Part shown: in pieces, positions 45,498 through 61,531 of the stretch
How positions within the stretch are numbered: the first letter of the stretch is position 1
Layout of the letters: each line of letters opens with the position of its first letter
Assembly (NCBI RefSeq): GCF_031195445.1
Contig: NZ_CP133480.1
Location: 1,722,001-1,786,000 of the forward strand
Direction: 5' to 3'
DNA: 64,000 bases
Source: Acuticoccus sp. MNP-M23
GTDB taxonomy: Bacteria > Pseudomonadota > Alphaproteobacteria > Rhizobiales > Amorphaceae
Program-made: the position numbers and the translations under genes
The notes under the pieces: model-generated
Told to the model about the DNA's origin: nothing
Seen by the model: only the letters and a program-made list of their open reading frames with translations
Database searches by the model: none

Positions 45498-45508
45498 AGG
45501 CTGACGCT

Positions 45509-46722: not shown

Positions 46723-46740
46723 AGACTTGGGAAGACAAAC

Positions 46741-47358
46741 ATGTTCAACGCAAAGCGACCCAGCCTCGAAGAGCTGCCGAGCTCGGCCCAGCTCCTTCGC
46801 TCCACCATTCTCGCGGCCGTGGCCGCAGCGGCAATCTTAGTCACCGTCGTCCTGCCTGCAGAATACGGGATCGACCCGACCGGTGTTGGTGGCGTGCTCG
46901 GTCTCGCCGACATGGGCGAGATCAAGCAGGAGCTCGCGGAGGAGGCCGAACGGGACCGTGCAATCCACGGCGGGTCCGACGAGAGCTCCGGTCTCCTCGA
47001 CGACGTGTTCGGCCTGTTTGTATCACCTGCGCATGCGCAGGAAGCCTGGCGTGACGAGATCACCTTCACGCTCGCCCCCGATGCCGCGACTGAAATCAAA
47101 CTGGCCATGACAGCGGGCGATGCGGCTGAGTACGCATGGGGCGCGGAGGGCGGCCGGATCAACTTCGATCTGCACGCCCACGGCGACGGCCAGTCCATCG
47201 ACTATGAGCGCGGCCGTGGCGAGACGTCAGGCGAAGGTGGCTTCGAAGCGCCTTTCGCAGGCGAGCACGGCTGGTTCTGGCGCAACCGCGACGACACCGA
47301 CGTCACGGTAACCTTGCAGCTCCGCGGCGACTACAGCGAGATCGTACAGAGCGACTGA
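46741..47358 (+). CDS. Transmembrane anchor protein (HupE-associated)
   Basis: 205 residues. One membrane span at about 20-42 (STILAAVAAAAILVTVVLPAEYG), then a periplasmic domain with acidic linker and beta-rich end (DEITFTLAPDAATEIKLAMTAGDAAEYAW, GGRINFDLHAHGDG). Annotated in many proteobacteria as a transmembrane anchor protein next to HupE/UreJ permease; role unknown, perhaps docking metal-loading partners. Last gene of the nickel module, followed by a hairpin. Confidence 0.8.
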   Translation: MFNAKRPSLEELPSSAQLLRSTILAAVAAAAILVTVVLPAEYGIDPTGVGGVLGLADMGEIKQELAEEAERDRAIHGGSDESSGLLDDVFGLFVSPAHAQEAWRDEITFTLAPDAATEIKLAMTAGDAAEYAWGAEGGRINFDLHAHGDGQSIDYERGRGETSGEGGFEAPFAGEHGWFWRNRDDTDVTVTLQLRGDYSEIVQSD

Positions 47359-47381
47359 GATCCTCACGAACATTCGCGCCA

Positions 47382-47404
47382 GCCAGGAGCTAATGGTTCC
47401 TGGC
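47382..47404 (+). terminator. Hairpin after nickel module
   Basis: GCCAGGA-9 nt-TCCTGGC: 7-bp perfect stem with a 9-nt loop, 24 bp past the anchor-protein stop. No T-run of note follows, so terminator strength is uncertain. Confidence 0.45.
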
Positions 47405-48000
47405 AGCGCCTTCTTCCATTCTCGGGAGAGGGCCATATCGGAAGCAAAGGCGACCCTCGCCGAAGGTACGGTTTCCTGACCGCGGCGGCCGCGGTAATGC
47501 GAGGCCGAAGGCCCAGTTTTGGCGCCTCGCCTTCACAGAAACTGCCGCGGAGCCGGCTTTCATACGTCAGTCTGTTCAGAGAACGCCTACGTAACTGCGC
47601 CTCCACACTCAAGTCCTCTATTCACACTTTCCAGCGGGCAGGGGGTCGGACATGCGTGTTCAGCCGGGGTCAGAGTTCTCTTGCGCCCCTTCGCGTGGCG
47701 ACGACATGTTGGCGTTAGAGCGGAGATCGGCGCAGATGGTTCACTCCGTGGGGACTGGCAAGCCCTCATGCCCGTCATGGGCATCACGGGCGGCGGTCTC
47801 ATCCGCTGTGTTCTGACTCTGTCCGAGCGGAGCGGGTTTCGCATGGTCGGGCAGCATCGTCCGACCCGGCGCATAATCCCTCAAGGTCGAGAACGTGCGA
47901 GCAACAAGCTTCACACGGTTAAGACAAATATCGCGAGCGTGATGGTCGCGTCGGGGTGTCGAGCCTTGACATGTTGGACCGTCATCCGTACACAGGCCTC
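47405..48000. other. Long intergenic region before copper operon
   Basis: About 600 bp. Scattered frames on both strands have no ribosome sites or recognisable proteins. Near its right end a sigma70-like pair TTGACA (47966-47971) -17 nt- TACACA (47989-47994) may be the promoter of the whole copper operon; transcription would then start at or just past 48001. Possibly decayed DNA from an earlier insertion. Confidence 0.35.
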
Positions 48001-48381
48001 ATGGTTCGCCGACTCGTCCTTTGTGTTGCATTTGTCTTCGCGCTTCTGGCTGGAAGCGCGGGCTGGGCGATCGTGGACGGGCCGAGCGCCATGGCGCATC
48101 CGGTCGGGGACGTATTGCTCGCCGATGCAGGTGCCGTGGAGGCGCACGTAGTGCGGGTGGACGCTTCGGCCGGAGATCGCTGCCCGCCGGGCGGTTGCGA
48201 AGCGGATCCGGCTGCCGATAAGGAATGTGTCGGCCCATCGGTCTCGTGTAGCGTAGCAGCGGCGATGAGTGCTGCAATCGGCCTTGGCGTCGCCGATCAT
48301 TCGTCTACAGACGTCGGCTCGTCTGCCGATTTCGGTTTGAGCGGCGTTTTCGGGCCAGTAGAGATTCCGCCTCCCCGCTGA
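48001..48381 (+). CDS. Small secreted cysteine-containing protein at the head of the copper operon
   Basis: 126 residues from ATG 48001 (upstream in-frame GTG 47956 and ATG 47971 are possible). Signal peptide MVRRLVLCVAFVFALLAGSAGWA, then CPPGGCEADPAADKEC and SVSC, three or four cysteines that may bind metal or form disulfides, and a Gly/Asp-rich tail. No named domain. If 48001 is used the transcript could be leaderless given the promoter-like pair just upstream. Confidence 0.55.
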   Translation: MVRRLVLCVAFVFALLAGSAGWAIVDGPSAMAHPVGDVLLADAGAVEAHVVRVDASAGDRCPPGGCEADPAADKECVGPSVSCSVAAAMSAAIGLGVADHSSTDVGSSADFGLSGVFGPVEIPPPR

Positions 48382-48441
48382 CCGCCTGACGGCGCGCCAC
48401 GTGCGCAAAGTCTTGGGGCTTGGTCACAGGGAAAACGGACA

Positions 48442-49053
48442 ATGAATCTTCGAACGAAGTGCGCCTTGGGCGCTGCGGCAGTGCTTTCGCTGTCGCTCTC
48501 GGCAGCTGCTATCGCCCACACTGGGGCAACGGGCATCGTCAAGCAGCGTATGGACGGGATGGCGGCAATCGGCGACGCCAATAAGGCGCTGCGCGCGATG
48601 TTTGCCGGCGAAGCACCCTACGATGCAAAGGCGGTTGCCGAACATGCGGAGACGATCCGCGGGCACGCGGGCGAGGCGATCACCAGTCTCTTCCCGGAAG
48701 GCAGCATCGACGGCCCTTCTGAGGCAAAGCCCGAAATCTGGGAGAACTGGGACGAGTTCGCAGCGCTCGCCAACCGGCTCGAGCGTACCGCGGAGGGGCT
48801 CGCCCGTGCCGCCGAAAACGCGCCCTCGGGCGAGGATGCAGCGCCCTCGATGGGCGCGATGATGGGTGGCGACACGCCCAACATGGGAGCCATGATGGGC
48901 GATCGCTCCATGTCGGACATGATGGCCGGCGGTGGCCAGGATATGGCGATGAGCGCCGAGATGATGGCCGAGATGCCGACGGACCGTGTGTTCGACATGC
49001 TCGGCGATACCTGCTCGTCCTGCCACACGAAGTTCCGCGTCGAGAAAGACTGA
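48442..49053 (+). CDS. Cytochrome c' with methionine-rich insertion
   Basis: 203 residues: Sec signal, four-helix cytochrome c' body (RMDGMAAIGDANKAL, VAEHAETIRGHAGEAI) and C-terminal heme site CSSCHTKFR (Cys191, Cys194, His195). Between helix 3 and 4 (about 137-178) there are 14 methionines in 42 residues in repeats such as PNMGAMMG, unlike normal cytochrome c'. This resembles Cu(I)-binding Met-rich loops of CopA/CueO/CusF-type proteins. First cytochrome of the operon; ends 3 bp before the next start. Confidence 0.85.
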   Translation: MNLRTKCALGAAAVLSLSLSAAAIAHTGATGIVKQRMDGMAAIGDANKALRAMFAGEAPYDAKAVAEHAETIRGHAGEAITSLFPEGSIDGPSEAKPEIWENWDEFAALANRLERTAEGLARAAENAPSGEDAAPSMGAMMGGDTPNMGAMMGDRSMSDMMAGGGQDMAMSAEMMAEMPTDRVFDMLGDTCSSCHTKFRVEKD

Positions 49054-49056
49054 CCG

Positions 49057-49953
49057 ATGCGGTTCTTGTTTGCGTTTATCGCCCTCCTTACGGTGGGGGG
49101 GGTCGGCTATGCTGCGCTCGTGGCCTGGCCGCTGGATGCCGATGCCGCTCTCGAAACGGAGCTGAAAGGCGATCCCATGCGCGGTGCCTATATGGCCCGC
49201 GCCTCAGGGTGCATCGGCTGCCATACGGATATCGAGGGCGGCGGCAAGCCGCTCGCCGGTGGACCCGGGCTGGACACCGATTTCGGCACGTTCTACGCGC
49301 CGAACATCACCACCGACCTGGTCGCGGGTATCGGCGACTGGAGTCTTGAAGACTTTGCGACGGCCGTGCGCAACGGTATCTCTCCGGACGGCGAGCCCTA
49401 CTACCCGGTCTTCCCTTACATCTTCTACACGCGGCTGACCGATCAGGACGTCGCCGACCTTTACGCGGCGTTCCGGACTGTGGCCCCGGTATCCGAGCCC
49501 GCGCCCGCCTCGGATGTGCCCTTCCCCTTCAGCGAACGCTACATGCTCAAGCTGTGGCGCGCGCTTTTCATGGATGCTGGCGAGTTCGATGCCGATTCGG
49601 CCCGCTCGGACGCGTGGAACCGCGGCAAGTATCTTGTCGAGGGGCCGCTGCACTGCGGCGCCTGCCACACCCCGCGCAACGTTTTCGGTGCGCGGGACCA
49701 CGGCCATCACTTCGAGGGAAGCAACGCGCTTCCCGGCGATGAATCGGCGCCACCGATCACGCTCGAAGCCCTGAAGGAGAACGACTGGAGCGCCGCCTCG
49801 CTCGCCTACGCGCTGAAGAGCGGGCTGACGCCGTCGGGCGACGCCTTCGGCAGTCTGATGGGCGAGGTGGTCCGCGACTCCACCTCCTTCCTGAACGAGG
49901 CGGACCGCGAAGCCATTGCGGCATTTCTGATGGGAGAGGACCCGCAAACATGA
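49057..49953 (+). CDS. Membrane-anchored diheme cytochrome c
   Basis: 298 residues. N-terminal span (2-25), then two c-type heme domains: CIGCH near 50 and CGACH at ~200, each in a ~100-residue unit. Met sixth ligands are likely but only the second (AFLMG) is convincing. The arrangement resembles cytochrome subunits of periplasmic dehydrogenases. Its stop overlaps the multicopper oxidase start by 4 bp (ATGA), suggesting fixed-ratio expression as redox partner. Confidence 0.88.
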   Translation: MRFLFAFIALLTVGGVGYAALVAWPLDADAALETELKGDPMRGAYMARASGCIGCHTDIEGGGKPLAGGPGLDTDFGTFYAPNITTDLVAGIGDWSLEDFATAVRNGISPDGEPYYPVFPYIFYTRLTDQDVADLYAAFRTVAPVSEPAPASDVPFPFSERYMLKLWRALFMDAGEFDADSARSDAWNRGKYLVEGPLHCGACHTPRNVFGARDHGHHFEGSNALPGDESAPPITLEALKENDWSAASLAYALKSGLTPSGDAFGSLMGEVVRDSTSFLNEADREAIAAFLMGEDPQT

Positions 49954-51383
49954 CTCTTTGCCGCGTGATCGATCTCAACCGGCGCCACTTCCTTGCCGGC
50001 GCCGGTGCTTCGGTCCTTGCCGCAGGTGCCCCGCGTCTCGCTCATGCGACGCCAACCGGGCAGCGATTGGTGGCGGACGAGGGCCGCGCGGTGCTGACCA
50101 CCGGGCGCGGAAGCCTCCCCGTCGACGCCTGGTCCTATGGCGGGAGCGTTCCGGGGCCGCTCTTGCGTTACCGGCGCGGCGAACGGCTTGACGTGACGTT
50201 CGAGAACCGCCTGGCTGAGCCGAGCGCGGTCCACTGGCACGGGCTGCGTCCGCCCAACGGCATGGATGGCGCGGCCCCGCTGACCCAGGCGCCCGTGCCA
50301 CCCGGCGAGACCTTCCGCTACGCCTTCGACCTCGATGACGCCGGAACCTACTGGTATCACACGCACTTTCGCGGCTGGAACCAGCAGGACCGTGGGCTCT
50401 ATGGCGTCGTCATCGTCGACGAAGAGACGCCGCCGGCGGTCGACCGCGATCTCCTCCTAGTGCTCGATGACTGGGTGCTGACCCCTGCTGGAACACTCTC
50501 CACCGACTTCGGGAACATGCACGAGTGGTCGCACGCCGGCCGGCTCGGCAATCTTGCCACCATCAACAATGCGGCCGACGCCGACGTCCCCGTCGCGGCC
50601 GGCGAGCGCATCAGGTTGCGGCTCGTCAACGTCGCCAATGCGCAAATATTCGCGCTGATGTTCGATTGGCACGATCCTGTCATCATCGCCGAGGACGGCA
50701 ACTCGGTGACGCCATGGGCGCTCGGCGCGGACGAGCTGCTCCTTGGGCCCGGGCAGCGTGTCGATCTCATCGTCGATGCGGTCGGTGCGCCGTCCTCGCG
50801 CCACGCGATCCGCGCCTACACGCTGCGCGACGAGGTCAACATGGGTGCCTTCGTCTACGCCGACCGGGAGGGCGGCACCGGGCTTGCCGGGACCGAGATC
50901 GCGCCGCTGGAGGGCAACGCGCGCCCGAGCCTCGACCTTGCCGGCGCGCGTCGTCTGGAGCTTCGCATGGAGGGCGGCGCGATGGGCGGCATGGGCCGCG
51001 CCATGATGGGAGGGCGCATGATGGGCATGCGTGAGCTCATGCTACACCGCCGGATCTGGGCCTTCAACGGCGTCGCCGGCGACATGGACGCGCCGCTCGC
51101 CTCCCTGAAGCGCGGCGAAACGGTGGTCGTCGACATCATCAACGACACTGCGTTTCCCCATGCCATGCACCTTCACGGAATGCATTTCCGCGAGATCGCC
51201 CGCAACGGCGCGCCCATCGAGGACGGCGCCTGGCGGGACACCTCGCTGATGGCCTCCGACGACAGGGTGGAGATCGCCTTCGTCGCGGAAACGCCGGGCC
51301 GATGGATGCTTCACTGCCACATGATCGAGCATCAGGCGGGCGGCATGATGACCTTCCTCGAAATCGAAGGAGACGAGGCGTGA
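49950..51383 (+). CDS. Tat-exported multicopper oxidase (CueO/CopA-like)
   Basis: 477 residues, three cupredoxin domains. Tat signal NRRHFLAGAGASVLAAG. Copper ligands: H95/H97 (HWHG), H137/H139 (HTH), H404/H407/H409 (HAMHLH), H455-C456-H457 with H461, and M466 as likely T1 axial ligand. A Met-rich insertion GGAMGGMGRAMMGGRMMGM (342-360) sits where CueO carries its Cu(I)-binding hairpin. Probably oxidises Cu(I) to Cu(II) in the periplasm. Downstream gene overlaps by 4 bp. Confidence 0.94.
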   Translation: MTLCRVIDLNRRHFLAGAGASVLAAGAPRLAHATPTGQRLVADEGRAVLTTGRGSLPVDAWSYGGSVPGPLLRYRRGERLDVTFENRLAEPSAVHWHGLRPPNGMDGAAPLTQAPVPPGETFRYAFDLDDAGTYWYHTHFRGWNQQDRGLYGVVIVDEETPPAVDRDLLLVLDDWVLTPAGTLSTDFGNMHEWSHAGRLGNLATINNAADADVPVAAGERIRLRLVNVANAQIFALMFDWHDPVIIAEDGNSVTPWALGADELLLGPGQRVDLIVDAVGAPSSRHAIRAYTLRDEVNMGAFVYADREGGTGLAGTEIAPLEGNARPSLDLAGARRLELRMEGGAMGGMGRAMMGGRMMGMRELMLHRRIWAFNGVAGDMDAPLASLKRGETVVVDIINDTAFPHAMHLHGMHFREIARNGAPIEDGAWRDTSLMASDDRVEIAFVAETPGRWMLHCHMIEHQAGGMMTFLEIEGDEA

Positions 51384-51979
51384 TTCCTGAAGAGCATTGC
51401 GACGACGATCTTTCTGGCGAGGAGACCCTTCTGTCGCGCCGCAATTTGTTGCTGGGCGCCGGCGCGCTGTCGCTGATGACGCTGGCGCCGGCTGCGGCGA
51501 TCGCGCACCCGCACCCGGTGAAAGCGCCCACCGTCGTTCGATTTTCCACGAAGGCGCGACCCGGCTCCATCGTCGTGCGCACCGGTGAGAAGCGCCTCTA
51601 CTACGTGCTCGGCCGCGGCCGTGCGCTCGCCTACGTCATCGGGGTGGGCAAGGCCGGCCGCTCGTTCCGCGGCAACGGCGTCATCGCGCGCAAAGCCAAG
51701 TGGCCGAGTTGGACGCCGACGCAGAATATGATCCGCCGCGAGCCGGGCAAGTACGCCAAATATGCGCGCGGCGTCCCCGGCGGACCGAACAACCCGCTCG
51801 GCGCCCGTGCCCTCTACCTCTACAAGGGCGGCCGGGACACCATGTACCGCATCCACGGCACCAACGATCCTTCAAGCGTTGGCCGCGCGGTGTCGAACGG
51901 GTGCATCCGCCTCCTCAACGAACACGTCAAGGATCTTTACACGCGCGTCGGCGTCGGCGCCCGCGTTTATGTCCAATGA
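51380..51979 (+). CDS. Tat-exported L,D-transpeptidase (YkuD family) I
   Basis: 199 residues from GTG 51380 (GTGA overlap with the oxidase stop). Twin-arginine-like signal LLSRRNLLLGAGALSLMTLAPAAAIA. Catalytic H159 (RIHGT) and C175 (SNGCIRLLN) are in the canonical YkuD pattern. Family forms meso-DAP 3-3 cross-links or attaches proteins to peptidoglycan. It is unusual as Tat substrate and as member of a copper operon. Confidence 0.9.
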   Translation: MIPEEHCDDDLSGEETLLSRRNLLLGAGALSLMTLAPAAAIAHPHPVKAPTVVRFSTKARPGSIVVRTGEKRLYYVLGRGRALAYVIGVGKAGRSFRGNGVIARKAKWPSWTPTQNMIRREPGKYAKYARGVPGGPNNPLGARALYLYKGGRDTMYRIHGTNDPSSVGRAVSNGCIRLLNEHVKDLYTRVGVGARVYVQ

Positions 51980-52012
51980 CACCTCAGAACCGACCTAATA
52001 CCGGAGTATCAC

Positions 52013-52474
52013 ATGCGTATTCATAAGATCGGCGCCCTTGCAGGTGCTGCAATGATCGGCATCATCGCCACCTCGGCGAAGGCGGAGCCGCAGGATCACA
52101 CCATGTACGTCTACAAGACGCCATGGTGCGGCTGCTGCACCGACTGGGCCGAGCACATGGAAGGGCTCGGCTACAAGCTGGAAATCACCGAGCTTGAAGA
52201 TCTCGCCCCGGTTCGCCGTCAGGCCGGCATTCCCGACGAGGTGCAGGGTTGCCATTCGGCCGCGATCGCCGGCTACGCGCTGGAGGGTCACGTGCCGCCC
52301 GAAGCCATCGCCAAGCTGCTCGAAGAGAAGCCCGACATCCGCGGCATTGCGGTGCCGGGAATGCCGCAGGGATCGATCGGCATGGGGAACAACCCCCGCG
52401 CAAAGTACAACGTCCACACCTTCGGCGCCGGGACGACCGAGGGCAGCACAGTCTTTTACCAGGCGGGCCGTTGA
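52013..52474 (+). CDS. DUF411 periplasmic metal-binding protein
   Basis: 153 residues: Sec signal MRIHKIGALAGAAMIGIIATSAKAE; WCGCC (Cys39, Cys41, Cys42), a later Cys80 in QGCHSA and the conserved GIAVPGMPQGSIGM ending. DUF411 proteins accompany copper resistance genes and are thought to bind Cu. It lies between the two L,D-transpeptidase genes; 1 bp separates it from the second. Confidence 0.9.
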   Translation: MRIHKIGALAGAAMIGIIATSAKAEPQDHTMYVYKTPWCGCCTDWAEHMEGLGYKLEITELEDLAPVRRQAGIPDEVQGCHSAAIAGYALEGHVPPEAIAKLLEEKPDIRGIAVPGMPQGSIGMGNNPRAKYNVHTFGAGTTEGSTVFYQAGR

Positions 52475-52475
52475 G

Positions 52476-53147
52476 ATGATCGGCCGGCGTGCCTTTATGA
52501 TCGGCGGCAGTGCGGCGGTTCTCGGCGGCTGCACGGTCGCCGAGACACCGGCGCCGCAAGTGGCGACCGCACCGCGGATTCCTGAGGTCTATAAGCTCAT
52601 GTACGGCCCGCGGCCGAACGAGCGTTTTCCCATTCCCGCGGTTCATCTTCGGCAGGTTGATCGCAAATACTGGCGGCGTGAGGTGCCCGACCCGACGGGC
52701 GAGGGACCGGGCGTTGTCGTCGTCGATACCGGCACATTTTATCTCTACTGGACGATGGAAGGCGGCCGGGCGATGCGCTACGGCGTGGGCCTCGGCCGCG
52801 AAGGCTTCGGCTGGGACGGTGAGGCGCGCATCCCCTTCAAGCGCGAGTGGCCCACATGGACGCCGCCAGCCGAGATGATCGCCCGCGAGCCCGAGCTTGA
52901 AAAATACCGCGACGGCATGGAGCCCGGGCTCGACAATCCGCTCGGCGCGCGGGCGCTCTATATTTTCCAAGGCCGGATCGACACGCTATATCGCCTGCAC
53001 GGCACCCAGGAAGCCTACTCCATCGGCCGTGCGGTGTCCTCGGGCTGCGTGCGCCTTCTCAACCAGGACGTTATCGACCTTTATAATCGCGTGCCGAACG
53101 GGACGCCGATCGTCGTGCGCCCGCCAAGCCGCCCGCTCCTGACCTGA
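52476..53147 (+). CDS. L,D-transpeptidase II, Tat/lipobox signal
   Basis: 223 residues. Signal MIGRRAFMIGGSAAVLGGC has a twin-arginine pair and a lipobox LGGC (Cys19), so a lipoprotein is likely. Catalytic H175 (RLHGT) and C191 (SSGCVRLLN). It shares the WPTWTPPAEMI / NPLGARALY blocks with the first L,D-transpeptidase (WPSWTPTQNMI / NPLGARALY), so the two are paralogues that diverged after duplication, the second longer and lipid-anchored. Same operon. Confidence 0.9.
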   Translation: MIGRRAFMIGGSAAVLGGCTVAETPAPQVATAPRIPEVYKLMYGPRPNERFPIPAVHLRQVDRKYWRREVPDPTGEGPGVVVVDTGTFYLYWTMEGGRAMRYGVGLGREGFGWDGEARIPFKREWPTWTPPAEMIAREPELEKYRDGMEPGLDNPLGARALYIFQGRIDTLYRLHGTQEAYSIGRAVSSGCVRLLNQDVIDLYNRVPNGTPIVVRPPSRPLLT

Positions 53148-53160
53148 CGGCACCCCGGTC

Positions 53161-53640
53161 ATGCAGCGCGCCATCATCCTTATCTGCCTCGGCGTCGCGA
53201 TCGGCGCGGGCGGCATCGCGCTGGTTGCGTTGTGGCCGGGCGCGGCGTCGGACGCCGTGGTGCTGCGCCCGGGCGACGACGCGGTCGTGGCGCTCGGCGC
53301 AACGGTTTATGCCGCTCAATGCGCCTCCTGCCACGGCGCGAACCTGGAGGGCGAGCCGAACTGGCGCGAGCGCGGCCCAGACGGCCGGCTTCCCGCGCCG
53401 CCGCACGATGAGACGGGGCACACCTGGCACCACCCCGATGCGATGCTCTTCGAGCTGACGAAGTACGGGCTGCCGAAACAGGTCGGCAATGGCGAGCCGT
53501 ATTTTTCGAACATGCCGGCGTATGAAGGCGTGCTGAGTGACGAGGAGATCGTCGCGGTGCTCTCCTACATCAAAAGCCGCTGGCCGCAGGAGGTTCGCGC
53601 CCGCCACGACGCGCTCAACGAACGGATGGAAGCGCAGTGA
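53161..53640 (+). CDS. Membrane-anchored monoheme cytochrome c
   Basis: 159 residues. N-terminal span (4-25), heme site CASCHG at about 57-62, axial Met in SNMPAYEGVL. Similar to small cytochromes delivering electrons to or from periplasmic oxidases. Stop overlaps the scsB start by 4 bp (GTGA). Confidence 0.9.
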   Translation: MQRAIILICLGVAIGAGGIALVALWPGAASDAVVLRPGDDAVVALGATVYAAQCASCHGANLEGEPNWRERGPDGRLPAPPHDETGHTWHHPDAMLFELTKYGLPKQVGNGEPYFSNMPAYEGVLSDEEIVAVLSYIKSRWPQEVRARHDALNERMEAQ

Positions 53641-55703
53641 CGCGGTGGTCATTCCGCACCGCGGCCGCGACCCTCGTGGCGGCGCTCGCCATCGCCGCTG
53701 TGCCGCAGGCGTTCGCGACCACCCCTTGGCAGGAGAAGGCGAACAGCGCGGCGCGGCTTCACGTTGCAAGCGCCGGGGACGGGAGCGTCGTCGCCGGCCT
53801 GGAAGTCAGACTTGCGGACGGCTGGAAGACGTACTGGCGATCGGCGGGTTCCACCGGTCTTCCGCCGGCGCTCTCCACCGATGGGTCGCAGAATGTCGAG
53901 GCGATCGAGCTTGTCTTCCCGGCCCCGGAGCGCTTCGTGGCGTTCGGCATCGAGGCGCTGGGCTACTCCGAGCGCGTCACCTTCCCGATCAGGGTGGAGC
54001 GGGAGGACCCTCGCCGCGGCGCGACCTTGTCGCTCGTGGCCGACCTCCTCGTTTGCGGCACCGTGTGCGTGCCGGAGCGCTTCGCATTCGAGGCGCTGAT
54101 CCCGGCCGATCCGGCCTTTCTGCCCGCGCTCGGCGAGACCCCGACCGACAAGGCGATGGCCAGGGTCCCCGTCCCCGCGCTCGATCGCGATGTCGCCCTC
54201 TCTCAACTTACTGCCGTCGAAAATGGTCTGTCGGTCGAGTTGAAGGCGTTCGGCGAGACCGGTGGGGCGCTGAGCGGCGCGCTCCTCGTCGCCGAAATCC
54301 CTGACGAGGATCCGCTGATCGGCGCGCTCGTGCCGGTGGGAGACGGGCTCTACCGCGGCACGCTTGAAGCCGCCGAGCCGCCGCCGCTCGGCTCGCGACT
54401 GCGCTTGACGGTGGTGGGCGCGGACGTGGCGCTCGATCTCACCGGCGCCGTCACGGCCTTCGTCGAGGGCGAAGCGCGCGGCGGCTCGGCGGTCTGGGCC
54501 ATCGTTCTGATCGCCTTCCTCGGCGGCCTCCTCCTCAACGTGATGCCGTGCGTCTTGCCGGTCCTATCCATCAAGCTCGCCGCGCTCGGCCGCACCGCAC
54601 ATCTCGAGCGCCGCCATCAACGCCTCGCCTTCCTTGCGACGGCCGCCGGCATCCTCGTGTTCGTCGGTCTGCTCGCGGCGGTGCTCGGCGCGCTGAAGGC
54701 GCTCGGCCAGGACGTTTTTTGGGGAATGCAGTTCCAGTCGCCGACCTTCGTGGCGCTGATCTTCGTCTTGTTCGCGCTGATGACGCTCAATCTCGCTGGA
54801 CTGTTCGAATTGCGGCTTCCGGCCGGACTTCAGAACCGGCTCGGGCGGCTCGGGCGCACCGGCGACTTCGCCGACGGCTTCGTCATCGCGCTGATCGCGA
54901 CCCCGTGCAGCGCGCCGTTCCTCGGCACGGCCATCAGCTTCGGTCTTGCGGGCGGACCAGGCGACCTTGCCCTCAGCTTTGCCGCGCTCGGGATGGGTTT
55001 TGCGTTCCCGTATCTTGCGGTCGCGATTGCGCCGCGCGCGGCTTTCTTCCTTCCCAGGCCAGGCGCCTGGATGCGCTGGGTGCAGCGCGGCCTCGTGTTG
55101 CCGATGCTGGCCGTCCTCGTCTGGCTCGGCTCGATCCTGGTGGCGCAGGCGGGGTTGGCTGCGCTCGCCGCAGCGGTCGCCGCCGTCCTGCTTGCCGGTG
55201 CTGCGGCAAGGCGGCCGAGCCGTCCGCTGACCGCTGCGAGCGTCGCGGTTGGCCTCGCAGCGATCGTGTTCGTTGGCTTCGGTAGCGCCATGACGGGCGG
55301 AGCGACGGACGAGCCTGTCGAGGCGGCGCACTGGCAGGCGTTCGACCGAATGGCTATCGACGAGCACGTGGCAGACGGCCATGTCGTGTTCGTCGACGTG
55401 ACCGCCGACTGGTGCATCACCTGCCTCTACAACAAAGCGGCCGCGATGGACCGTGACCCCGTCGTCGCGGTGCTGGAGCGGGACGACACCTTCGCCATGC
55501 GCGCCGACTGGACCCTGCCAGACGAGGCGATCGCCGCCTTCGTCAAGGCGCAGGGGCGCTATGGCATTCCGCTCAACGTCGCCTACGGGCCCGGCCGCCC
55601 AGGCGGCGTTCTCCTTCCCGAAATCCTGACCGTGAACAGCGTTCTCGCCGCCATCGACGAAGCGCGCGGCAGGCCGCAGACGGTCGCGTCCACCAAGGAA
55701 TGA
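53637..55703 (+). CDS. scsB: ScsB/DsbD-like thiol:disulfide membrane reductase
   Basis: 688 residues from GTG 53637. Periplasmic N-terminal domain with LLVCGTVCVPERF cysteine pair, central TM block of eight spans with catalytic cysteines in NVMPCVLPVLSIK and TPCSAPFLG, and a C-terminal thioredoxin domain with DWCITCLYNK. ScsB brings reducing power from cytoplasmic thioredoxin to the periplasm; scs stands for suppressor of copper sensitivity in enterobacteria. The partner scsC follows with a 4-bp overlap. Confidence 0.93.
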   Translation: MTRWSFRTAAATLVAALAIAAVPQAFATTPWQEKANSAARLHVASAGDGSVVAGLEVRLADGWKTYWRSAGSTGLPPALSTDGSQNVEAIELVFPAPERFVAFGIEALGYSERVTFPIRVEREDPRRGATLSLVADLLVCGTVCVPERFAFEALIPADPAFLPALGETPTDKAMARVPVPALDRDVALSQLTAVENGLSVELKAFGETGGALSGALLVAEIPDEDPLIGALVPVGDGLYRGTLEAAEPPPLGSRLRLTVVGADVALDLTGAVTAFVEGEARGGSAVWAIVLIAFLGGLLLNVMPCVLPVLSIKLAALGRTAHLERRHQRLAFLATAAGILVFVGLLAAVLGALKALGQDVFWGMQFQSPTFVALIFVLFALMTLNLAGLFELRLPAGLQNRLGRLGRTGDFADGFVIALIATPCSAPFLGTAISFGLAGGPGDLALSFAALGMGFAFPYLAVAIAPRAAFFLPRPGAWMRWVQRGLVLPMLAVLVWLGSILVAQAGLAALAAAVAAVLLAGAAARRPSRPLTAASVAVGLAAIVFVGFGSAMTGGATDEPVEAAHWQAFDRMAIDEHVADGHVVFVDVTADWCITCLYNKAAAMDRDPVVAVLERDDTFAMRADWTLPDEAIAAFVKAQGRYGIPLNVAYGPGRPGGVLLPEILTVNSVLAAIDEARGRPQTVASTKE

Positions 55704-56437
55704 TGATGCTTAGAACCCTTGTTGTCCTGCTTTCACTGACGCTGCCCGCCGCCACCGTGTCGGCGCAGAGCCTTACCGACGCGCAGGAAGCAGCGGTGCG
55801 CGAACTGATCCGCGAACACCTCATCGAGAATCCGGAAATCCTCGCCGAGGCGTTCGAGGCGCTGCAGGCCCGCCAGCAGCAGGCCGAGGTGAAAGCCCGC
55901 CAGGATGCGCTCGCCGAGCTCAGCGATGTCTTGCGCAATGCCGGCGACGACCCCATCGGAGGCAACCCAGACGGCACGATCACCGTCGTCGAGTTTTTTG
56001 ACTACAACTGCCCGTTCTGCCGTCGAGTGAAACCTGAAGTCATAACGCTTCTGGAGAACGACGAGCGGATCCGGTACGTCTTCAAGGAGTTCCCGATCTT
56101 GTCGGAGTCTTCGGCGCAGGCCGCCCGTGTGGCGCTCGCCGTGTGGGACATCGACCCGGCGTCTTACTGGGACGTGCACAACGCGTTGATGGGCCACGAC
56201 GGCACACTCGCCGAGGATCAGATCCGCGCAGTCGTCGTCGAAGCCGGGCTCGATTGGGACGCGGTCGTAGCGCGCGGCGATGACGAGGACATCACGCAAA
56301 AGATCCGCCAGACGCTTCAGACGGCGCAGCGGCTTGGTATCAACGGCACGCCGAGCTTCGTCATCGGCAGCGAGATCATTCCGGGGTTTGTCGAAGCAGA
56401 ACAGCTCGCGGCGGCGGTCGCCGCCATCGACCGCTGA
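55700..56437 (+). CDS. scsC: ScsC-like DsbA-family thiol oxidoreductase
   Basis: 245 residues. Sec signal, N-terminal helical stalk (DAQEAAVRELIREHLIENPEIL, resembling the trimerisation region of ScsC), thioredoxin fold with CPFC (Cys104/Cys107) and cis-Pro GTPSF. Works as disulfide isomerase/copper-binding protein reduced by ScsB. Starts at 55700, with two further in-frame ATGs at once after. RBS AAGGA just upstream. Confidence 0.92.
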   Translation: MMMLRTLVVLLSLTLPAATVSAQSLTDAQEAAVRELIREHLIENPEILAEAFEALQARQQQAEVKARQDALAELSDVLRNAGDDPIGGNPDGTITVVEFFDYNCPFCRRVKPEVITLLENDERIRYVFKEFPILSESSAQAARVALAVWDIDPASYWDVHNALMGHDGTLAEDQIRAVVVEAGLDWDAVVARGDDEDITQKIRQTLQTAQRLGINGTPSFVIGSEIIPGFVEAEQLAAAVAAIDR

Positions 56438-56469: not shown

Positions 56470-57135
56470 ATGAGTTTGCTCACGATGTTGCGAGAATTTG
56501 CGGTTCGCTCCGCGCTCGCGGGCGCGGCGATCGAGTTTATAGCCTCGCCGGCCGCGGCGCATCCGCATGAGTTCATCACGGTTCAGACGGAGGTCGTCTT
56601 CGACGACGCAGGTCGCGTGATCGGCATGCGCCACGCCTGGCTGCTCGATGAGTTTTTCACGGCCTACGCCGTGGAAGGCGCTGACAGCGATGGCGACGGC
56701 GCTCCCGACCGCGAGGGCCTGACCGATCTGATGCTGGAAATCCTCGGCAACATCGCGCAGAGCGGCTACCTGACCGACTTTCGCACAATGGGTGAGGCGC
56801 CGAAGATCACCTCGCACAACCCCCTGTCGGTCGATCTCAAGAGCCGGCGGCTCTCGCTGAATTTCGAGGTCGTATTCGCAGAACCCTACGACGCCTCGCA
56901 GACGCCGCTCAGGTACGCGCTCTACGAGCCGACATACTATATTGCCGTCAACCATGTGCCGGGCGCATCGGCCGTCACGCTCGACAATGCGCCGGAGGGC
57001 TGTCGCTCGTCGCTCCAGGAGCCCGATCCGGGCGAGGATCTGACCGCGTTCGCCCTCGCGCTCGACAAGACCCAGAGCGCCGGGGACGACCTCGGTGTCA
57101 ACTTCGCCGAATGGGTGACGGTGACATGCAGCTGA
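56470..57135 (+). CDS. DUF1007 family periplasmic protein (ZevA-like)
   Basis: 221 residues. Signal peptide ending ASPAAA, then HPHEFITVQTEVVFDDAG (His-rich DUF1007 N-terminal motif) and LNFEVVFAEPYDASQTPLRYALYEPTYY. DUF1007 proteins pair with NicO permeases (ZevAB) for zinc, nickel or cobalt. Here the gene overlaps the NicO start by 10 bp. Confidence 0.88.
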   Translation: MSLLTMLREFAVRSALAGAAIEFIASPAAAHPHEFITVQTEVVFDDAGRVIGMRHAWLLDEFFTAYAVEGADSDGDGAPDREGLTDLMLEILGNIAQSGYLTDFRTMGEAPKITSHNPLSVDLKSRRLSLNFEVVFAEPYDASQTPLRYALYEPTYYIAVNHVPGASAVTLDNAPEGCRSSLQEPDPGEDLTAFALALDKTQSAGDDLGVNFAEWVTVTCS

Positions 57136-58046
57136 CGCTCACCCTCAGCACCCGCCTTGCGCTTGCGGCGTTCGTCGCCGCGGCTGTCATCCTCCTCGGC
57201 TGGGACGCAATGACGGCCGCCTATAGGGACCTCCTCGGCGTGGTCTATTTAGAGCAGCGCGCCTTTCACGGCCGCATGACACAGGCGCTGAGCGCGCTGG
57301 CGGATGCACATCGACCCGAGACGATCGTCACCGTTCTCACCGGCAGCTTCCTCTATGGCGTGTTCCACGCTGCGGGGCCCGGCCATGGCAAGGTGGTCCT
57401 GTCCACCTACCTCCTGACGAACCCGGAGAAGGTGCGCCGCAGCGTTGGGATGGCGGCAGCCGCGGCGTTCTGCCAGGGCGTCGTCGCGATCGCGCTGGTT
57501 TACGGCCTCTTCTACGTGTTCGGGCTGATGGCGCGCACCAGCAACGTCGCCGTGATCTGGTCCGAGCGCCTCAGCTACGCCCTGGTGATCGGCTTCGGCC
57601 TCTTCCTCCTCGGCCGCGCGGTGCGTGCCTTTCTGCCGGCATCGGCGAAGGAACATCATTGCGATCACACCCACGTGCCGGCCGGCGCCGACGTCGGGAA
57701 GGCGGGCGACCTGAAATCGACCCTCGGCGTAATCGCCTCCATCGGCGCGCGGCCATGTTCGGGTTCGGTGCTGGTTCTCGTCTTTGCCCGGTTCGCGGAC
57801 ATTCCGCTGGCAGGCGTCCTCGCGGTGGCGGCCATCTCGACCGGCACCGCGATCACCGTCATCACGCTCGCGCTGACAGCGCTCTACGCACGGCGGATCG
57901 CGGTCCGCGCGCTAACGGCGCAAAGCCGCCTGCCGGGCCGGCTCGGCGCAGGCCTTGTTGCGGCAGGCGGTGCGTTCCTGGTGATCGTCGGCGCTGGGCT
58001 CCTGTCCTCGTCGTTCGAGCCGCAAGCGCGCTCGCTCGGGCTGTGA
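57126..58046 (+). CDS. NicO/RcnA-type nickel/cobalt transporter (ZevB-like)
   Basis: 306 residues with six or more hydrophobic spans. FLYGVFHAAGPGHGKVVLSTYLL (HxxxGPGH metal motif), a His-rich cytoplasmic loop KEHHCDHTHVPAG and GARPCSGSVLVLVFA are NicO features. May export excess Ni/Co or import zinc with its ZevA-like partner. Last gene of the operon; next are convergent copZ and a palindromic repeat. Confidence 0.88.
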   Translation: MQLTLTLSTRLALAAFVAAAVILLGWDAMTAAYRDLLGVVYLEQRAFHGRMTQALSALADAHRPETIVTVLTGSFLYGVFHAAGPGHGKVVLSTYLLTNPEKVRRSVGMAAAAAFCQGVVAIALVYGLFYVFGLMARTSNVAVIWSERLSYALVIGFGLFLLGRAVRAFLPASAKEHHCDHTHVPAGADVGKAGDLKSTLGVIASIGARPCSGSVLVLVFARFADIPLAGVLAVAAISTGTAITVITLALTALYARRIAVRALTAQSRLPGRLGAGLVAAGGAFLVIVGAGLLSSSFEPQARSLGL

Positions 58047-58074: not shown

Positions 58075-58192
58075 CTAGAGCGGTTTCGGTTGGAATGGAA
58101 TCATGACGAACAGGACGAAACCGCTCAAGAGTCCGAATCTGGGGCGATTTCTCTTCGACCGAATGACTCCATTCGGTCGGAAAGCGCCCTAG
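58075..58192. repeat. Palindromic repeat element (MITE/RIME-like)
   Basis: About 118 bp flanked by CTAGAGCGGTTT (58075-58086) and AAAGCGCCCTAG (58181-58192), near-perfect terminal inverted repeats. Inside are two further hairpins: GAGCGGTTTCG/CGAAACCGCTC (58078-58088 and 58116-58126, 11 bp exact) and GACCGAATG-ACTC-CATTCGGTC (58157-58178). The right end overlaps the copZ stop codon. It lies between convergent genes and may end transcription from both. Similar short palindromes are scattered in Rhizobiales genomes. Confidence 0.65.
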
Positions 58193-58383
58193 CGAACCTC
58201 GGCCGGAAAGCCTGCCTTCTGGAGCGCTTCGAGGACATCCGCCTCGCTCGCCTTCGTTTCGATGACGGCCTCGCGCGACGGCGGGTCGGCACTTACCGTG
58301 GCCCGCTCGTCGAGCTCGGCGATCGCTCGCCTGACACCGGCGGCGCAGCCGCCGCACGCCATATCTGGAATGCTCAGTCTCAT
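58189..58383 (-). CDS. copZ: Copper chaperone (HMA domain, CopZ)
   Basis: 64 residues: one heavy-metal-associated domain with MACGGC (MxCxxC) near the N-terminus. Delivers Cu(I) to CopA. RBS GAGAGG upstream of the ATG at 58383; frame has a TTG 15 nt further upstream. Divergent from copA with two MerR-type promoters between. The stop codon lies inside the repeat element's right end. Confidence 0.92.
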   Translation of the reverse strand: MRLSIPDMACGGCAAGVRRAIAELDERATVSADPPSREAVIETKASEADVLEALQKAGFPAEVR

Positions 58384-58413: not shown

Positions 58414-58444
58414 ATCGTGGGACTTGCCACAATGGGAAGGTCAA
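58414..58444 (-). promoter_or_regulatory. CueR-type promoter/operator for copZ
   Basis: On the minus strand: -35 TTGACC (58444-58439), 19-bp spacer containing TTCCCATTGTGGCAAGTCC dyad-like sequence, -10-like CACGAT (58419-58414). The elongated 19-bp spacer and ACCTTCCCA half-site match operators of CueR activators. It points to copZ, 31 bp from its ATG. Confidence 0.65.
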
Positions 58445-58468
58445 CACCTGCAATGCGGCGTTCACCAC

Positions 58469-58499
58469 TTGACCTTCCCATGATGGGTAGAATTACCTC
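58469..58499 (+). promoter_or_regulatory. CueR-type promoter/operator for copA
   Basis: -35 TTGACC (58469-58474), 19-bp spacer TTCCCATGATGGGTAGAAT, -10-like TACCTC (58494-58499). The dyad ACCTTCCCATGATGGGTAG is the CueR operator in kind. It lies 30 bp upstream of the copA GTG start and faces the copZ promoter back to back, with 24 bp between the two -35 elements. Confidence 0.75.
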
Positions 58500-58528: not shown

Positions 58529-61063
58529 GTGACGAGCACGGTCGAGCAGACGAAAACTCCCTCACTCGCTTCCCCCTCAAGCGTCGAGATCGGGATCGAG
58601 GGCATGTCCTGCGCATCCTGCGTCGGGCGCGTCCAGAAGGCGCTGGAGCGATTGCCGGACGTCGCCTCGGCCAGCGTGAACCTTGCGACCGAGCGTGCGC
58701 GGGTCGAATTCGACGGCGCGGCCGACCTCTCCGCCGTGCGGGACGCCGTGGAAGCCACCGGCTACACGGTCCGCGAGGAGACCACGGAGCTTGCCATCGA
58801 GGGCATGAGTTGCGCCTCTTGCGTCGGCCGAATCGAACGTGCGCTCACTGCCGTCAACGGGGTTTTCGAGGCCAGCGTCAACCTCGCCGCAGAGCGCGCG
58901 GTCGTGCGCCACGTCGCGGGCGCGGTGACCGCTGATCGCTTGGTGCAAGCCATCGAGCGCGCAGGCTATGAGGCGAGGGTTGCGGCCGGCGCCGAGGAGG
59001 ACAGCGGCGAGGACAGGCGAAGCGCCGAACTCACCTCGCTGCGCCGCGCCGTCCTCCTGTCGGCGATCCTGACGCTCCCCATCGTCATCCTCGAAATGGG
59101 CGCGCACCTCGTCCCGGCGCTGCGCGATGCGATCGACGCGACCCTCGGCCGCCAGACGAACTGGCTGATCCAATTCGTGCTTACCACCGTCGTCCTCTTC
59201 GGCCCGGGGCTGCGCTTCTTCCAAAAGGGCGTGCCTCAACTCCTGCGCGTTGCGCCGGACATGAACTCGCTGGTGGCGCTCGGGACCAGCGCCGCCTGGG
59301 GCTATTCGGTGGTGGCGACCTTCGCGCCGAGCGTCCTGCCGGAGGGCACGCACAACGTCTATTTCGAGGCCGCCGCCGTCATTGTCACCTTGATCCTCGT
59401 CGGGCGCTTCCTGGAGGCGCGCGCCAAGGGCCACACCGGCGAGGCGATCAAGCGCCTGATGGGCCTGAAGGCGAAGACCGCGCGCGTGGTGCGAGATGGC
59501 ACCTCGGTCGACGTGCCGCTGGAGGAGGTGCGCGTCGGCGATACCGTCGCGGTGCGGCCCGGCGAGAAGGTGCCTGTCGACGGTATCGTGCTGGAGGGCT
59601 CGAGCTTCCTCGACCAGTCGATGATCACCGGCGAGCCGATCCCGGTCGCCAAGGGCGAGGGCGACGAGGTCGTCGGCGGGACGATCAACAAGACTGGCGC
59701 CGTCACCTTCCGCGCGGCGAAAGTGGGCGCCGACACGGTGCTGTCGCAGATCATCAAGATGGTCGAGACGGCCCAGGGCGCGAAGCTGCCGATCCAGGGG
59801 CTCGTCGACAAGGTCACATACGTCTTCGTGCCCATCGTGATCGGTATCGCATTGGTGACCTTCGCGGTGTGGCTCGCGCTCGGTCCGGCGCCCGCGCTCA
59901 CATTCGCGCTGGTCAACGCGGTGGCAGTCCTCATCATCGCTTGTCCGTGCGCAATGGGGCTTGCGACGCCGACCTCGATCATGGTGGGCACCGGCCGCGG
60001 CGCCCAGATGGGCGTCCTCTTCCGCAAGGGCGAGGCGCTGCAGACCTTGCGCAGCGCCGACATCGTTGCGCTCGACAAGACCGGCACGCTGACCAAGGGG
60101 CGGCCCGAGCTAACCGACATTGCCACCGCCGAAGGGTTTGGCGAAGACGAAGTGCTGGCTCTCGTCGCCGCCGTGGAGGCGCAGTCCGAACATCCCATCG
60201 CCGAAGCGATCGTTGAGGCGGCGAAGGCCCGCCAGCTCGAGCCATCGAGGGCCAGCGACTTTTCCGCCTCGCCGGGATTTGGCGTGTCGGCGCGGGTCTC
60301 GGGACGCCGGGTCGAGGTCGGCGCCGACCGCTACATGGACCGGCTCGGGATCGACGCGCGCCCGTTTGCGCAGACGGAGGAGCGCCTCGCTCGCGAAGGC
60401 AAGTCGCCGCTCTACGCCGCAGTCGATGGCCGGCTCGCGGCAATCGTCGCCGTCGCCGACCCGATCAAGCCGACCTCGCGGCAGGCGATCGAGGCGCTGC
60501 ATGACGCGGGGCTCAAGGTCGCGATGATCACCGGCGACAACCGGCGCACGGCCGATGCCATCGCGGCGACACTCGGCATCGACACGGTGGTCGCCGAGGT
60601 GCTGCCGGAAGGCAAGGTGGAGGCGGTGAAGTCGCTGCGAACGGACGGCCGCGTCGCATTCGTCGGCGACGGCATCAACGATGCGCCCGCGCTCGCAGAG
60701 GCCGATGTCGGCATTGCCATCGGCACCGGCACGGACGTCGCGATCGAGGCGGCCGACGTCGTCCTGATGTCCGGCGACCTGAACGGCGTGCCGAACGCGA
60801 TCGCGCTGTCGCGCGCCACCATCAGCAACATCAAGCAGAACCTGTTCTGGGCGTTCGCCTACAACACCGCTCTCATTCCGGTGGCGGCGGGCGCGCTCTA
60901 CCCCGCGTTCGGGATTTTGCTGTCGCCGATCTTCGCCGCGGGCGCGATGGCGCTCTCCAGCGTCTTCGTGCTGACGAACGCGCTGCGCTTGAAACGTTTT
61001 CGGCCGCCGCTCGGCGCGGCATCGAAGTCCACCGGGGACCTCGAGCTTTCGCCGGCTGAGTAG
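58529..61063 (+). CDS. copA: Cu(I)-exporting P1B-ATPase
   Basis: 844 residues. Two N-terminal HMA domains (GMSCASC, Cys28/31 and Cys95/98), eight membrane spans, actuator TGEPIPV, ion site CPC (472-474) in [15 protein letters not shown], phosphorylation Asp516 in DKTGTLTKG and hinge [10 protein letters not shown]. Pumps Cu(I) out of the cytosol. The GTG at 58529 is supported by GGAGG at 58517-58521; the ATG at 58524 would stop after two codons. 18 bp ahead of cueR. Confidence 0.97.
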
Positions 61064-61081: not shown

Positions 61082-61531
61082 ATGAATATCGGGCAAGCTT
61101 CGAAAGAGTCGGGCGTCACCGCCAAGATGATCCGCTATTACGAAGATATCGGATTGATCGAGAAGCCTGCCCGGACGTCTTCCGGCTACCGGAGCTATCG
61201 CCCGTGTGACGTTCATACGCTGCGCTTCATCAAGCGCGCCCGCGACTTCGGCTTCTCCATCGAAAAGATCTCGGAGCTGTTGGCGCTGTGGCGGGACCGC
61301 GAGCGGGCCAGCGCGGACGTGAAAAGGCTCGCGCAAGAACACCTCGAACGTCTCGACAGCAAGGTCGCAGAGTTGCAGGCGATGGCCGACGCCTTGCGGC
61401 AACTCGCAGCGCATTGCAGCGGCGATCACCGGCCGGACTGTCCGATCATCAAGTCACTCGCCGATGACGAGCGTCCTTCCGACGGCTTGCAAGCGGCAAG
61501 CCGCAGCGATCGTCCGCCTGCCCGGGTTTGA
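61082..61531 (+). CDS. cueR: Copper-responsive MerR regulator (CueR)
   Basis: 149 residues. N-terminal MNIGQASKESGVTAKMIRYYEDIGLI helix-turn-helix, a long dimer helix and metal loop CSGDHRPDC. Cys112 and Cys120 and Ser77 fall exactly at the monovalent-metal positions of E. coli CueR, so it should sense Cu(I)/Ag/Au and activate the copA and copZ promoters. Shares the transcript with copA (18-bp gap). Confidence 0.94.
   Translation: MNIGQASKESGVTAKMIRYYEDIGLIEKPARTSSGYRSYRPCDVHTLRFIKRARDFGFSIEKISELLALWRDRERASADVKRLAQEHLERLDSKVAELQAMADALRQLAAHCSGDHRPDCPIIKSLADDERPSDGLQAASRSDRPPARV

Follow-up and report, generated by a model that had tools for sequence, protein, structure and literature searches.

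Why should two genes for L,D-transpeptidases (LDTs) of the YkuD type lie in the middle of a copper operon? The question is raised by a locus of a probably marine bacterium in the window, i. e. the whole stretch of 64,000 nucleotides that was analysed. E. coli can dispense with L,D-transpeptidases. In the accessible text of a study on A. tumefaciens (PMC11527210), LD-transpeptidation seems to be essential and LD-crosslinks make up about 30% of the crosslinks; copper should therefore hit such walls hard. The word 'copper' is absent from the main text of that study, and no literature was found on how copper-resistant members of this order cope. Inhibition of L,D-transpeptidases by copper, which the preliminary description had mentioned for E. 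coli, is described in the accessible parts of the literature for DpaA (IC50 about 0.1 mM) and LDTBcn, and for the E. coli enzymes only as cited there.

Two YkuD genes in a copper operon

Both YkuD genes belong to one run of eleven co-directional genes (48442-58046; open reading frame list and Pfam), in which the order multicopper oxidase, YkuD1, DUF411, YkuD2, cytochrome c is found and which also encodes ScsB-like and ScsC-like proteins (Table 1). The two YkuD proteins exceed the curated cut-off of PF03734 (23.4 bits), their fold is supported by a PDB sequence match (6v45, E 1.6e-41), and the catalytic His and the S-[NS]-G-C-[IV]-R Cys motif are intact in both (HGTNDPSSVGRAVSNGCIR and HGTQEAYSIGRAVSSGCVR). 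Thus two intact L,D-transpeptidases do flank the DUF411 gene between oxidase and cytochrome, as had been described. The NCBIfam equivalogs NF007563, NF047955 (LdtE) and NF007612 assigned no subtype to them (best score 90.9 bits vs 517).

Table 1. Features of the YkuD-bearing run and the adjacent copper genes
Feature	Position	Strand	Evidence
Cytochrome c' family protein, first gene of tight run	48442..49053	+	PF01322 86.2 bits
Cytochrome c, two CxxCH haem motifs	49057..49953	+	PF00034 34 bits; motifs from translation
Multicopper oxidase, three Cu-oxidase domains, RR-type N-terminus	49950..51383	+	PF07732/PF07731/PF00394
YkuD1, L,D-transpeptidase, soluble periplasmic type	51380..51979	+	PF03734 79.2 bits; GTG start
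DUF411 protein, CopG-like copper protein	52013..52474	+	PF04214 80.6 bits; PDB 6wis
YkuD2, L,D-transpeptidase, Tat-lipoprotein type	52476..53147	+	PF03734 80.9 bits; ATG start
Cytochrome c, N-terminal hydrophobic stretch	53161..53640	+	PF00034 50.9 bits
DsbD/ScsB-like thiol reductase (DsbD_N, DsbD_TM, thioredoxin)	53637..55703	+	PF11412, PF02683, PF13899
ScsC-like DsbA-family thiol oxidoreductase	55700..56437	+	PF01323 92.1 bits; PF18312 ScsC_N 38.2 bits, cut-off 25.8
DUF1007 protein	56470..57135	+	PF06226 171.6 bits
NicO-type metal transport protein, last gene of run	57111..58046	+	PF03824 75.2 bits
Small protein, presumably CopZ-like (MxCxxC motif), divergent from Cu-ATPase	58189..58383	-	translation
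Two CueR-box-like palindromes, between copZ-like gene and Cu-ATPase	58422..58491 (58422-58440, 58473-58491)		2 mismatches each
CopA-type heavy-metal P-type ATPase, two HMA stretches	58529..61063	+	PF00122, PF00702, PF00403
CueR-like MerR regulator	61082..61531	+	PF09278 75 bits, PF13411 69.4 bits

The DUF411 protein belongs to the CopG/DUF411 proteins, with the CGCC and CH positions aligned to PDB 6wis (E 3.7e-21). The oxidase did not reach the cut-off of TIGR01480 (177.2 vs 478.95 bits) and also stayed below that of CueO. With DUF411/CopG and Cue/Cop-type operons the window shares the oxidase, the DUF411 protein, the Cu-ATPase, the CueR-like regulator and the cytochromes; the YkuD genes set it apart (see below). 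Small Cys/His-rich proteins without a Pfam match are encoded upstream of several YkuD1 genes, and a look-alike is present in the window at 48001-48381.

The palindrome scan used what we take to be the CueR-box consensus. Intergenic CueR-like boxes with up to two mismatches (45-62 kb) were all located at the Cu-ATPase, and the run with the YkuD genes showed no copper-regulator site. A one-mismatch palindrome at 51352-51370, inside the coding end of the oxidase gene, was taken as chance, although the window has more matches to the loose pattern than expected (53 vs 35.0 when up to three mismatches are allowed; 0/100 shuffles as high). A search of 45000-62500 for sigma-70 sites gave no match.

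Linkage to copper genes across genomes

The copper association extends beyond this genome. Eleven of the 28 listed YkuD1-query loci outside the window's genus (L130-L157; up to 12 candidates scored per genome; five of them, L153-L157, outside both YkuD clades) lie near copper genes, compared to 0/29 control YkuD loci (P = 1.2e-4), with L197, one of the 20 controls from other genomes, later placed in the YkuD2 clade. The positive loci span eight genera, one of which supplies 4/11 of them and four of the six loci with at least two copper-set genes. This set is a cleaner test than the YkuD2-clade loci L161-L168, which are not context-blind because they were retrieved after their neighbourhoods of about 3.6 kb were already known.

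On the tree, members of the YkuD1 clade (30 rows, support 99/96) and the YkuD2 clade (36 rows, support 99/96) have a copper-set gene nearby in 38 of 66 cases, the other YkuDs in 1/30, and this sole exception is part of a clade member that carries a frameshift. When picked plasmids and the window's genus are dropped, the counts are 23/46 and 0/20. Annotated copper or heavy-metal genes occur in 12/12 of the annotated plasmid regions retrieved around YkuD1 or YkuD2 matches. The hand-set copper label changes 16 times on the tree vs 31.4 times after shuffling, and at least nine changes are forced by strong branches. Tandem pairing is found in 20 of the 30 YkuD1-clade genes, and a cytochrome c gene follows 16 of the 36 YkuD2-clade genes.

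Seen from the copper side the picture is different. The preliminary description had considered the ordered set of oxidase, YkuD, DUF411, YkuD and cytochrome c as a possible system of its own. Among 77 sampled DUF411 loci only one has a YkuD gene nearby (0/37 stretches from the class, 1/40 from the order), so the exact order was rejected as a general system. The link is thus one-sided, recurrent from the YkuD side and rare from the copper side, and the recurrent unit is the YkuD pair and not a DUF411 insertion. An excess of redox genes beside YkuD genes is weak (10/31 vs 1/16 loci, P = 0.046), and four of the ten loci depend on a thioredoxin query drawn from those same loci. More than one ScsC_N-family gene is present in 7/92 positive genomes; there are two in genome G000 and three in G002, and the extra copies sit in islands.

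The linkage could be due to hitch-hiking, i. e. the pair would be a mobile duplicate of wall genes that travels on metal-resistance plasmids and islands, giving general envelope fitness and having no copper-specific role. Consistent with this, no copper-set gene is close by for 28 of the 66 genes in the two clades, and some of the islands are plasmid-borne and include arsenic or mercury genes. We nevertheless consider it rather unlikely: YkuD1 sits in a tight operon and overlaps the stop of the oxidase gene by four bases, oxidase, DUF411 and cytochrome c recur as YkuD neighbours in different families, and none of the control YkuD loci was near copper-set genes. The recurrence of the pair in copper clusters suggests that it helps to maintain wall integrity during copper stress.

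Export signals and active sites

YkuD1 starts with an SRRNLLLG signal and has no lipobox. The signal of YkuD2 (GRRAFMIGGSAAVLGGC) combines RR with a lipobox Cys, which makes it a Tat-lipoprotein type. Twin-arginine signals on both proteins had been described before and are present as RR-plus-hydrophobic N-termini, called by motif alone. Contrary to the earlier view, they are not unusual for L,D-transpeptidases: RR signals occur in 25/30 YkuD1-clade members, 35/36 YkuD2-clade members and 14/30 other YkuDs, and the LDTs of A. tumefaciens carry Sec, TAT and lipoprotein signals according to the accessible text of PMC11527210. In both clades Tat-type signals are usual whether or not the gene is copper-linked, and Tat export was rejected as a copper-specific trait.

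The accessible literature on LDTs of Hyphomicrobiales (A. tumefaciens group 3; the Brucella lipoproteins Ldt1/2/4) reports the same combination of a YkuD domain with Tat or lipoprotein signals; these enzymes differ in being known for polar growth and outer-membrane protein tethering. An LDT encoded on plasmid At of Agrobacterium C58, probably Atu5196 judging from its plasmid, groups in the YkuD2 clade; of the seven group 3 members the comparison covered this one. The annotation shows no copper-set gene over 12 kb on its upstream side and 22 kb on its downstream side. Could the YkuD proteins then be dedicated linkers that, under copper stress, anchor outer-membrane or copper proteins in the peptidoglycan? 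Tethering by LDTs of this order (PMC12729407, PMC11527210, as far as accessible) and the lipoprotein type of YkuD2, resembling Brucella Ldt1/2/4, would fit. Yet no outer-membrane protein was found among the ten Pfam-scanned proteins of the run or in the NicO gene, and nothing positive emerged for linkage of copper proteins, an idea of the preliminary description, so we regard this role as quite improbable.

Fourteen YkuD genes are present in the source genome. Among them is a second copy of the pair, 67-68% identical, which lies at C1:1862 kb beside sdh subunit genes and has no copper-set genes near it. This second pair and the count of YkuD genes had escaped the preliminary description, as had the YkuD2 lipobox and the DsbD/ScsB-like and ScsC-like genes of the run.

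With a resident pair at hand and a copper context for the other, the latter might encode intrinsically copper-tolerant enzymes that replace the poisoned resident ones. The domain stretch contains a single Cys in YkuD1, in 30/30 members of its clade and in 35/36 of the YkuD2 clade, and in neither clade does the alignment hold a column that distinguishes copper-linked sequences from the rest at P < 0.002, a test of limited power because only 16 vs 14 and 22 vs 14 sequences were compared. A copper-specific active-site change was rejected on this basis. As Tat-type signals are independent of copper and no residue separates the groups, nothing marks the enzymes as copper-tolerant, and intrinsic tolerance appears very improbable. 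Of the 'copper-tolerant replacements' proposed earlier, 'replacement' agrees with the data if it means a spare copy; tolerance is not supported. Another wall chemistry (LD-carboxypeptidase, D-amino-acid exchange) that alters how the wall binds copper or how permeable it is appears highly improbable: several activities are known among YkuD proteins (accessible text of PMC12729407), but the analyses, which had other aims, brought up no sequence sign of it.

Proposed spare copies for a wall under copper stress

The best reading, for which we see an even balance, is that the YkuD pair in the copper cluster is a set of spare Hyphomicrobiales-type L,D-transpeptidases, which would sustain the wall under copper. 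Walls of this order are rich in LD-crosslinks and, in the one species tested, depend on them. Periplasmic copper would attack the catalytic Cys of the resident enzymes. Fresh enzyme from the operon, soluble YkuD1 and lipoprotein YkuD2, would then be supplied under copper stress and keep LD-crosslinks or outer-membrane tethers forming. Against this reading, the active site is unaltered, and copper should poison the spares just as it does the resident enzymes. Free Cu(I) would be lowered by the oxidase, the DUF411 protein and the Cu-ATPase, and oxidised catalytic Cys of the YkuDs would perhaps be reduced by the co-encoded ScsB/ScsC-like pair.

This pair belongs to the Scs (suppressor of copper sensitivity) type, as a DsbD-type protein adjoins an ScsC-like protein with a ScsC_N domain (PF18312). 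It differs in that the Scs genes of the window are joined to genes for L,D-transpeptidases, which have one catalytic Cys and are candidate substrates. The DsbD-DsbG system reportedly protects the L,D-transpeptidases of E. coli; to our knowledge it is not part of a copper operon there. A membrane thiol reductase, a periplasmic DsbA-fold protein and single-Cys L,D-transpeptidases are common to both, and a similar thiol partnership may exist at this locus.

More tentatively, copper islands of bacteria with LDT-dependent walls might carry envelope spare-parts kits that duplicate the reported targets of copper, i. e. L,D-transpeptidases, the thiol-disulfide enzymes Scs/Dsb and the lipoprotein maturation enzymes LspA and Lnt, together with bypass enzymes such as PBP2. 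PMC12582456 gave no confirmation that an M23 peptidase is part of the copper-silver island of enterobacteria.

The recurrent linkage of YkuD and copper genes makes the question of the wall directly testable. A protective role of the pair would add cell-wall maintenance to the strategies of copper resistance and, if the idea of a spare-parts kit is true, copper resistance would include replacing and repairing the wall machinery, not just removal of the metal.

Operon anatomy and the two L,D-transpeptidases

Gene calls on the window give eleven genes running in one direction; no gap between them exceeds 33 bases, and there are short overlaps at five junctions. By Pfam the order is cytochrome c', two-haem cytochrome c, multicopper oxidase with a twin-arginine-type (RR) signal, the L,D-transpeptidase YkuD1, a DUF411 protein, the L,D-transpeptidase YkuD2, cytochrome c, a DsbD/ScsB-like protein, a ScsC-like protein, DUF1007 and a NicO-type protein; beyond the run lie a divergent CopZ-like gene and genes for a CopA-type ATPase and a CueR-like regulator. 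Within 45-62 kb, the intergenic CueR-like boxes with at most two mismatches are those at the Cu-ATPase. The CGCC and CH positions of the DUF411 protein align with PDB 6wis, the CopG of Pseudomonas aeruginosa. Both YkuD genes are intact, exceed the PF03734 cut-off and retain the catalytic His and Cys; the window thus contains, as the preliminary description had it, two intact paralogues between a multicopper oxidase and a cytochrome c, with DUF411 in between. On their left side, the metal genes are preceded by a transposase-like frame, of IS3 type by eye, and by one for an MFS transporter, which fits a mobile origin.

Coordinates of the features discussed (window positions unless a locus is named)
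Feature	Position	Remark
Transposase-like frame	41615-42436	
MFS transporter frame	44499-45227	
Look-alike of the small Cys/His proteins	48001-48381	upstream of cytochrome c' gene
Eleven-gene run	48442-58046	
Multicopper oxidase	49950-51383	
YkuD1	51380-51979	
YkuD2	52476-53147	
Small Cys/His protein	L148:9284-9721	upstream of YkuD1 gene
Small Cys/His protein	L141:9531-9878	upstream of YkuD1 gene
Small Cys/His protein	L152:8404-8787	upstream of YkuD1 gene
Split YkuD1 frames	L158:9520-10197 and 9539-9925	genome G002, contig C4
Locus of the second YkuD pair (L123)	C1:1850000-1869000	window's genome (G000)

The wide loci yielded 96 YkuD proteins in which the motif is clear (four more were dropped, the motif being absent by the pattern used), and 95 formed the tree input. 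YkuD1 and YkuD2 belong to clades of 30 and 36 rows, with support 99/96 each. The recurrent unit is the YkuD1-YkuD2 pair: a same-strand YkuD2-clade gene lies within 2.6 kb of 20 of the 30 YkuD1-clade genes, and YkuD1 comes first in 19 of these 20 tandem pairs. Of the ordered set of oxidase, YkuD, DUF411, YkuD and cytochrome c, it is the pair that recurs and not the DUF411 insertion, which is present in five of the 20 (the window, L125 from its genus, L051 on a Hoeflea plasmid, L135 and L137). Cytochrome c comes next after 16/36 YkuD2-clade genes. In G002, the genome of a relative, a second copper copy has YkuD1 split into two overlapping frames and an open YkuD2 frame.

Both operon enzymes are apparently Tat-exported, the RR motif claimed earlier being readable in each. 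RR signals without lipobox were found in 25/30 YkuD1-clade members, and RR signals in 35/36 YkuD2-clade members, 33 with a lipobox by pattern, so the operon encodes one soluble and one lipid-anchored enzyme. The supposition that such signals are unusual for L,D-transpeptidases found no support. They occur in 14/30 YkuDs outside both clades and in 6 of 12 inspected YkuDs of the window's genome (14 exist; two of the stretches may miss the start), and are about equally frequent in copper-linked and other clade members. The idea of copper-tolerant enzymes fared no better, as at P < 0.002 no column of the alignment told copper-linked members apart from the rest (16 vs 14 YkuD1, 22 vs 14 YkuD2 sequences). 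Exactly one Cys lies within the domain stretch in 30/30 YkuD1 and 35/36 YkuD2 sequences, and YkuD1 is strongly basic in any context, averaging a net charge of roughly +15 to +17 across about 140 residues.

Copper linkage beyond the window

The test set comprised all 28 listed places matched by the YkuD1 query at E <=1e-55 in 249 genomes of the order, with the window's genus excluded and at most 12 candidates scored per genome; five of them (L153-L157), all without copper genes, fall outside both clades. The 29 controls were 20 weaker YkuD places (consecutive list rows except one of the window's genome), of which the tree placed one, L197, in the YkuD2 clade, and nine other YkuD loci of the window's genome. 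At least one copper-set gene (oxidase, DUF411, Cu-ATPase, CueR, three cytochromes, ScsB) was present in 11/28 test loci and at least two in 6/28, compared with 0/29 controls (Fisher test, P = 1.2e-4 and 0.01, respectively); one of the 20 weaker places has a ScsC-like gene alone. The 11 positive loci span eight genera, a single genus accounting for four of them and for four of the six with two or more copper-set genes. The copper association is thus not confined to one genome.

Sorted by clade, 38/66 clade genes are copper-linked versus 1/30 others, that one being a piece of a frameshifted clade member. With plasmid picks and the window's genus removed the counts are 23/46 versus 0/20 (P = 2.4e-5), the YkuD2 loci being partly not context-blind. 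A hand-set copper label (42/95 rows) changes 16 times on the tree versus 31.4 times when shuffled, and strong branches force at least 9 changes; this is repeated recruitment or loss.

Seen from DUF411, the link is rare and thus runs one way. A YkuD gene was present in 0/37 DUF411 stretches sampled across the class and in 1/40 sampled across the order (roughly one list row in three, own genus omitted). Among these 77, by contrast, genes for oxidases (28), for Cu-ATPases (20) and for the cytochrome (14) are frequent. This marks the pair as accessory to the copper clusters of some lineages rather than part of their core.

All 12 annotated plasmid regions around YkuD1 or YkuD2 matches contain annotated copper or heavy-metal genes; they were picked by similarity and genus spread (9 Hyphomicrobiales, one from the window's genus, and 3 Rhodobacterales), with DUF411 already visible in one row beforehand. 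A YkuD2 match lies on plasmid NZ_CP094829.1 of the seawater isolate Acuticoccus sp. I52.16.1. A thirteenth region, from plasmid At of Agrobacterium fabrum C58, was examined for its L,D-transpeptidase, which we infer from its plasmid to be the studied Atu5196. The gene belongs to the YkuD2 clade (at most 70% identity to its members), and no annotated copper genes were found around it in 35 kb.

Resident copies and other envelope genes

Another YkuD1-YkuD2 pair lies elsewhere in the window's genome, at C1:1862 kb (67-68% identity, tblastn). It adjoins genes for two Sdh_cyt membrane subunits and an amidohydrolase, and no copper-set genes are present nearby in 19 kb. A bacteriorhodopsin-family gene also lies near this resident pair. 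The ScsC_N family occurs in 92/101 genomes of the order, in more than one copy in 7/92; in two of these seven, the window's genome (two copies) and G002 (three), the extras lie within copper islands.

Duplicated envelope genes (PBP2, M23 peptidase, LspA, Lnt, other-type murein L,D-transpeptidase, MsrP) were found in 11/70 copper-labelled loci versus 2/52 others, the two exceptions being L055, an annotated metal-resistance plasmid region missed by the label, and L178, chosen for its YkuD. Because four of the 11 loci themselves supplied a query, and only 4 of the 77 DUF411 stretches contain such duplicates, this pattern is a lead rather than a test. PBP2 (mrdA) accompanies YkuD genes in the metal islands L055, L056 and L201. 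For the L056 PBP2, the closest plasmid-borne homologues (>80% identity) lie on two other Rhodobacterales plasmids, one of them a copper island. PBP2 is described as missing from A. tumefaciens, a member of the family to which the L055 host belongs (PMC11527210). LspA occurs in the copper or metal islands L055, L092, L118 and L203, and Lnt in the first two; this agrees with lipoprotein maturation being a reported copper target (PMC6538781), which a commentary lists beside L,D-transpeptidases and disulfide formation (PMC6593411).

Several YkuD1 genes directly follow a gene for a small protein that is apparently secreted, has Cys/His pairs and is rich in Pro towards its C-terminus; no Pfam match was found for these proteins.

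A possible role under copper stress

The single-Cys L,D-transpeptidases of E. coli are kept reduced by DsbG. Work by Peters in 2018 reportedly found the E. coli L,D-transpeptidases to be inhibited by copper. Inhibition by copper is also described for DpaA (IC50 about 0.1 mM; PMC8263019) and, at 1 mM, for LDTBcn (PMC10864386). For a DsbG-like protein of Helicobacter, reduction of a putative L,D-transpeptidase in vitro has been cited, but the citing paper calls for clarification and finds the protein to act as an oxidant in the cell (PMC3463561). Possibly, the catalytic Cys of the YkuDs is reduced via ScsB/ScsC. Redox-gene neighbours were present in 10/31 loci versus 1/16 control loci (P = 0.046), a weak excess, as four of the 10 hinge on a thioredoxin query taken from those loci and three more come from one genus.

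In A. tumefaciens, LD-crosslinks are described as about 30% of crosslinks, LD-transpeptidation as seemingly essential, and seven L,D-transpeptidases as mostly restricted to Hyphomicrobiales and some Rhodobacterales (PMC11527210). Copper-linked YkuD genes were seen here in these same two orders.

The enzymes and the operon are each already known. Their coupling, put forward earlier as undescribed, still looks so, no account of YkuD or L,D-transpeptidase genes linked to copper resistance, oxidase or DUF411 clusters having been found among the open-licence papers listed. The interpretation proposed here is that the operon supplies extra L,D-transpeptidases while its remaining genes would bring copper down.
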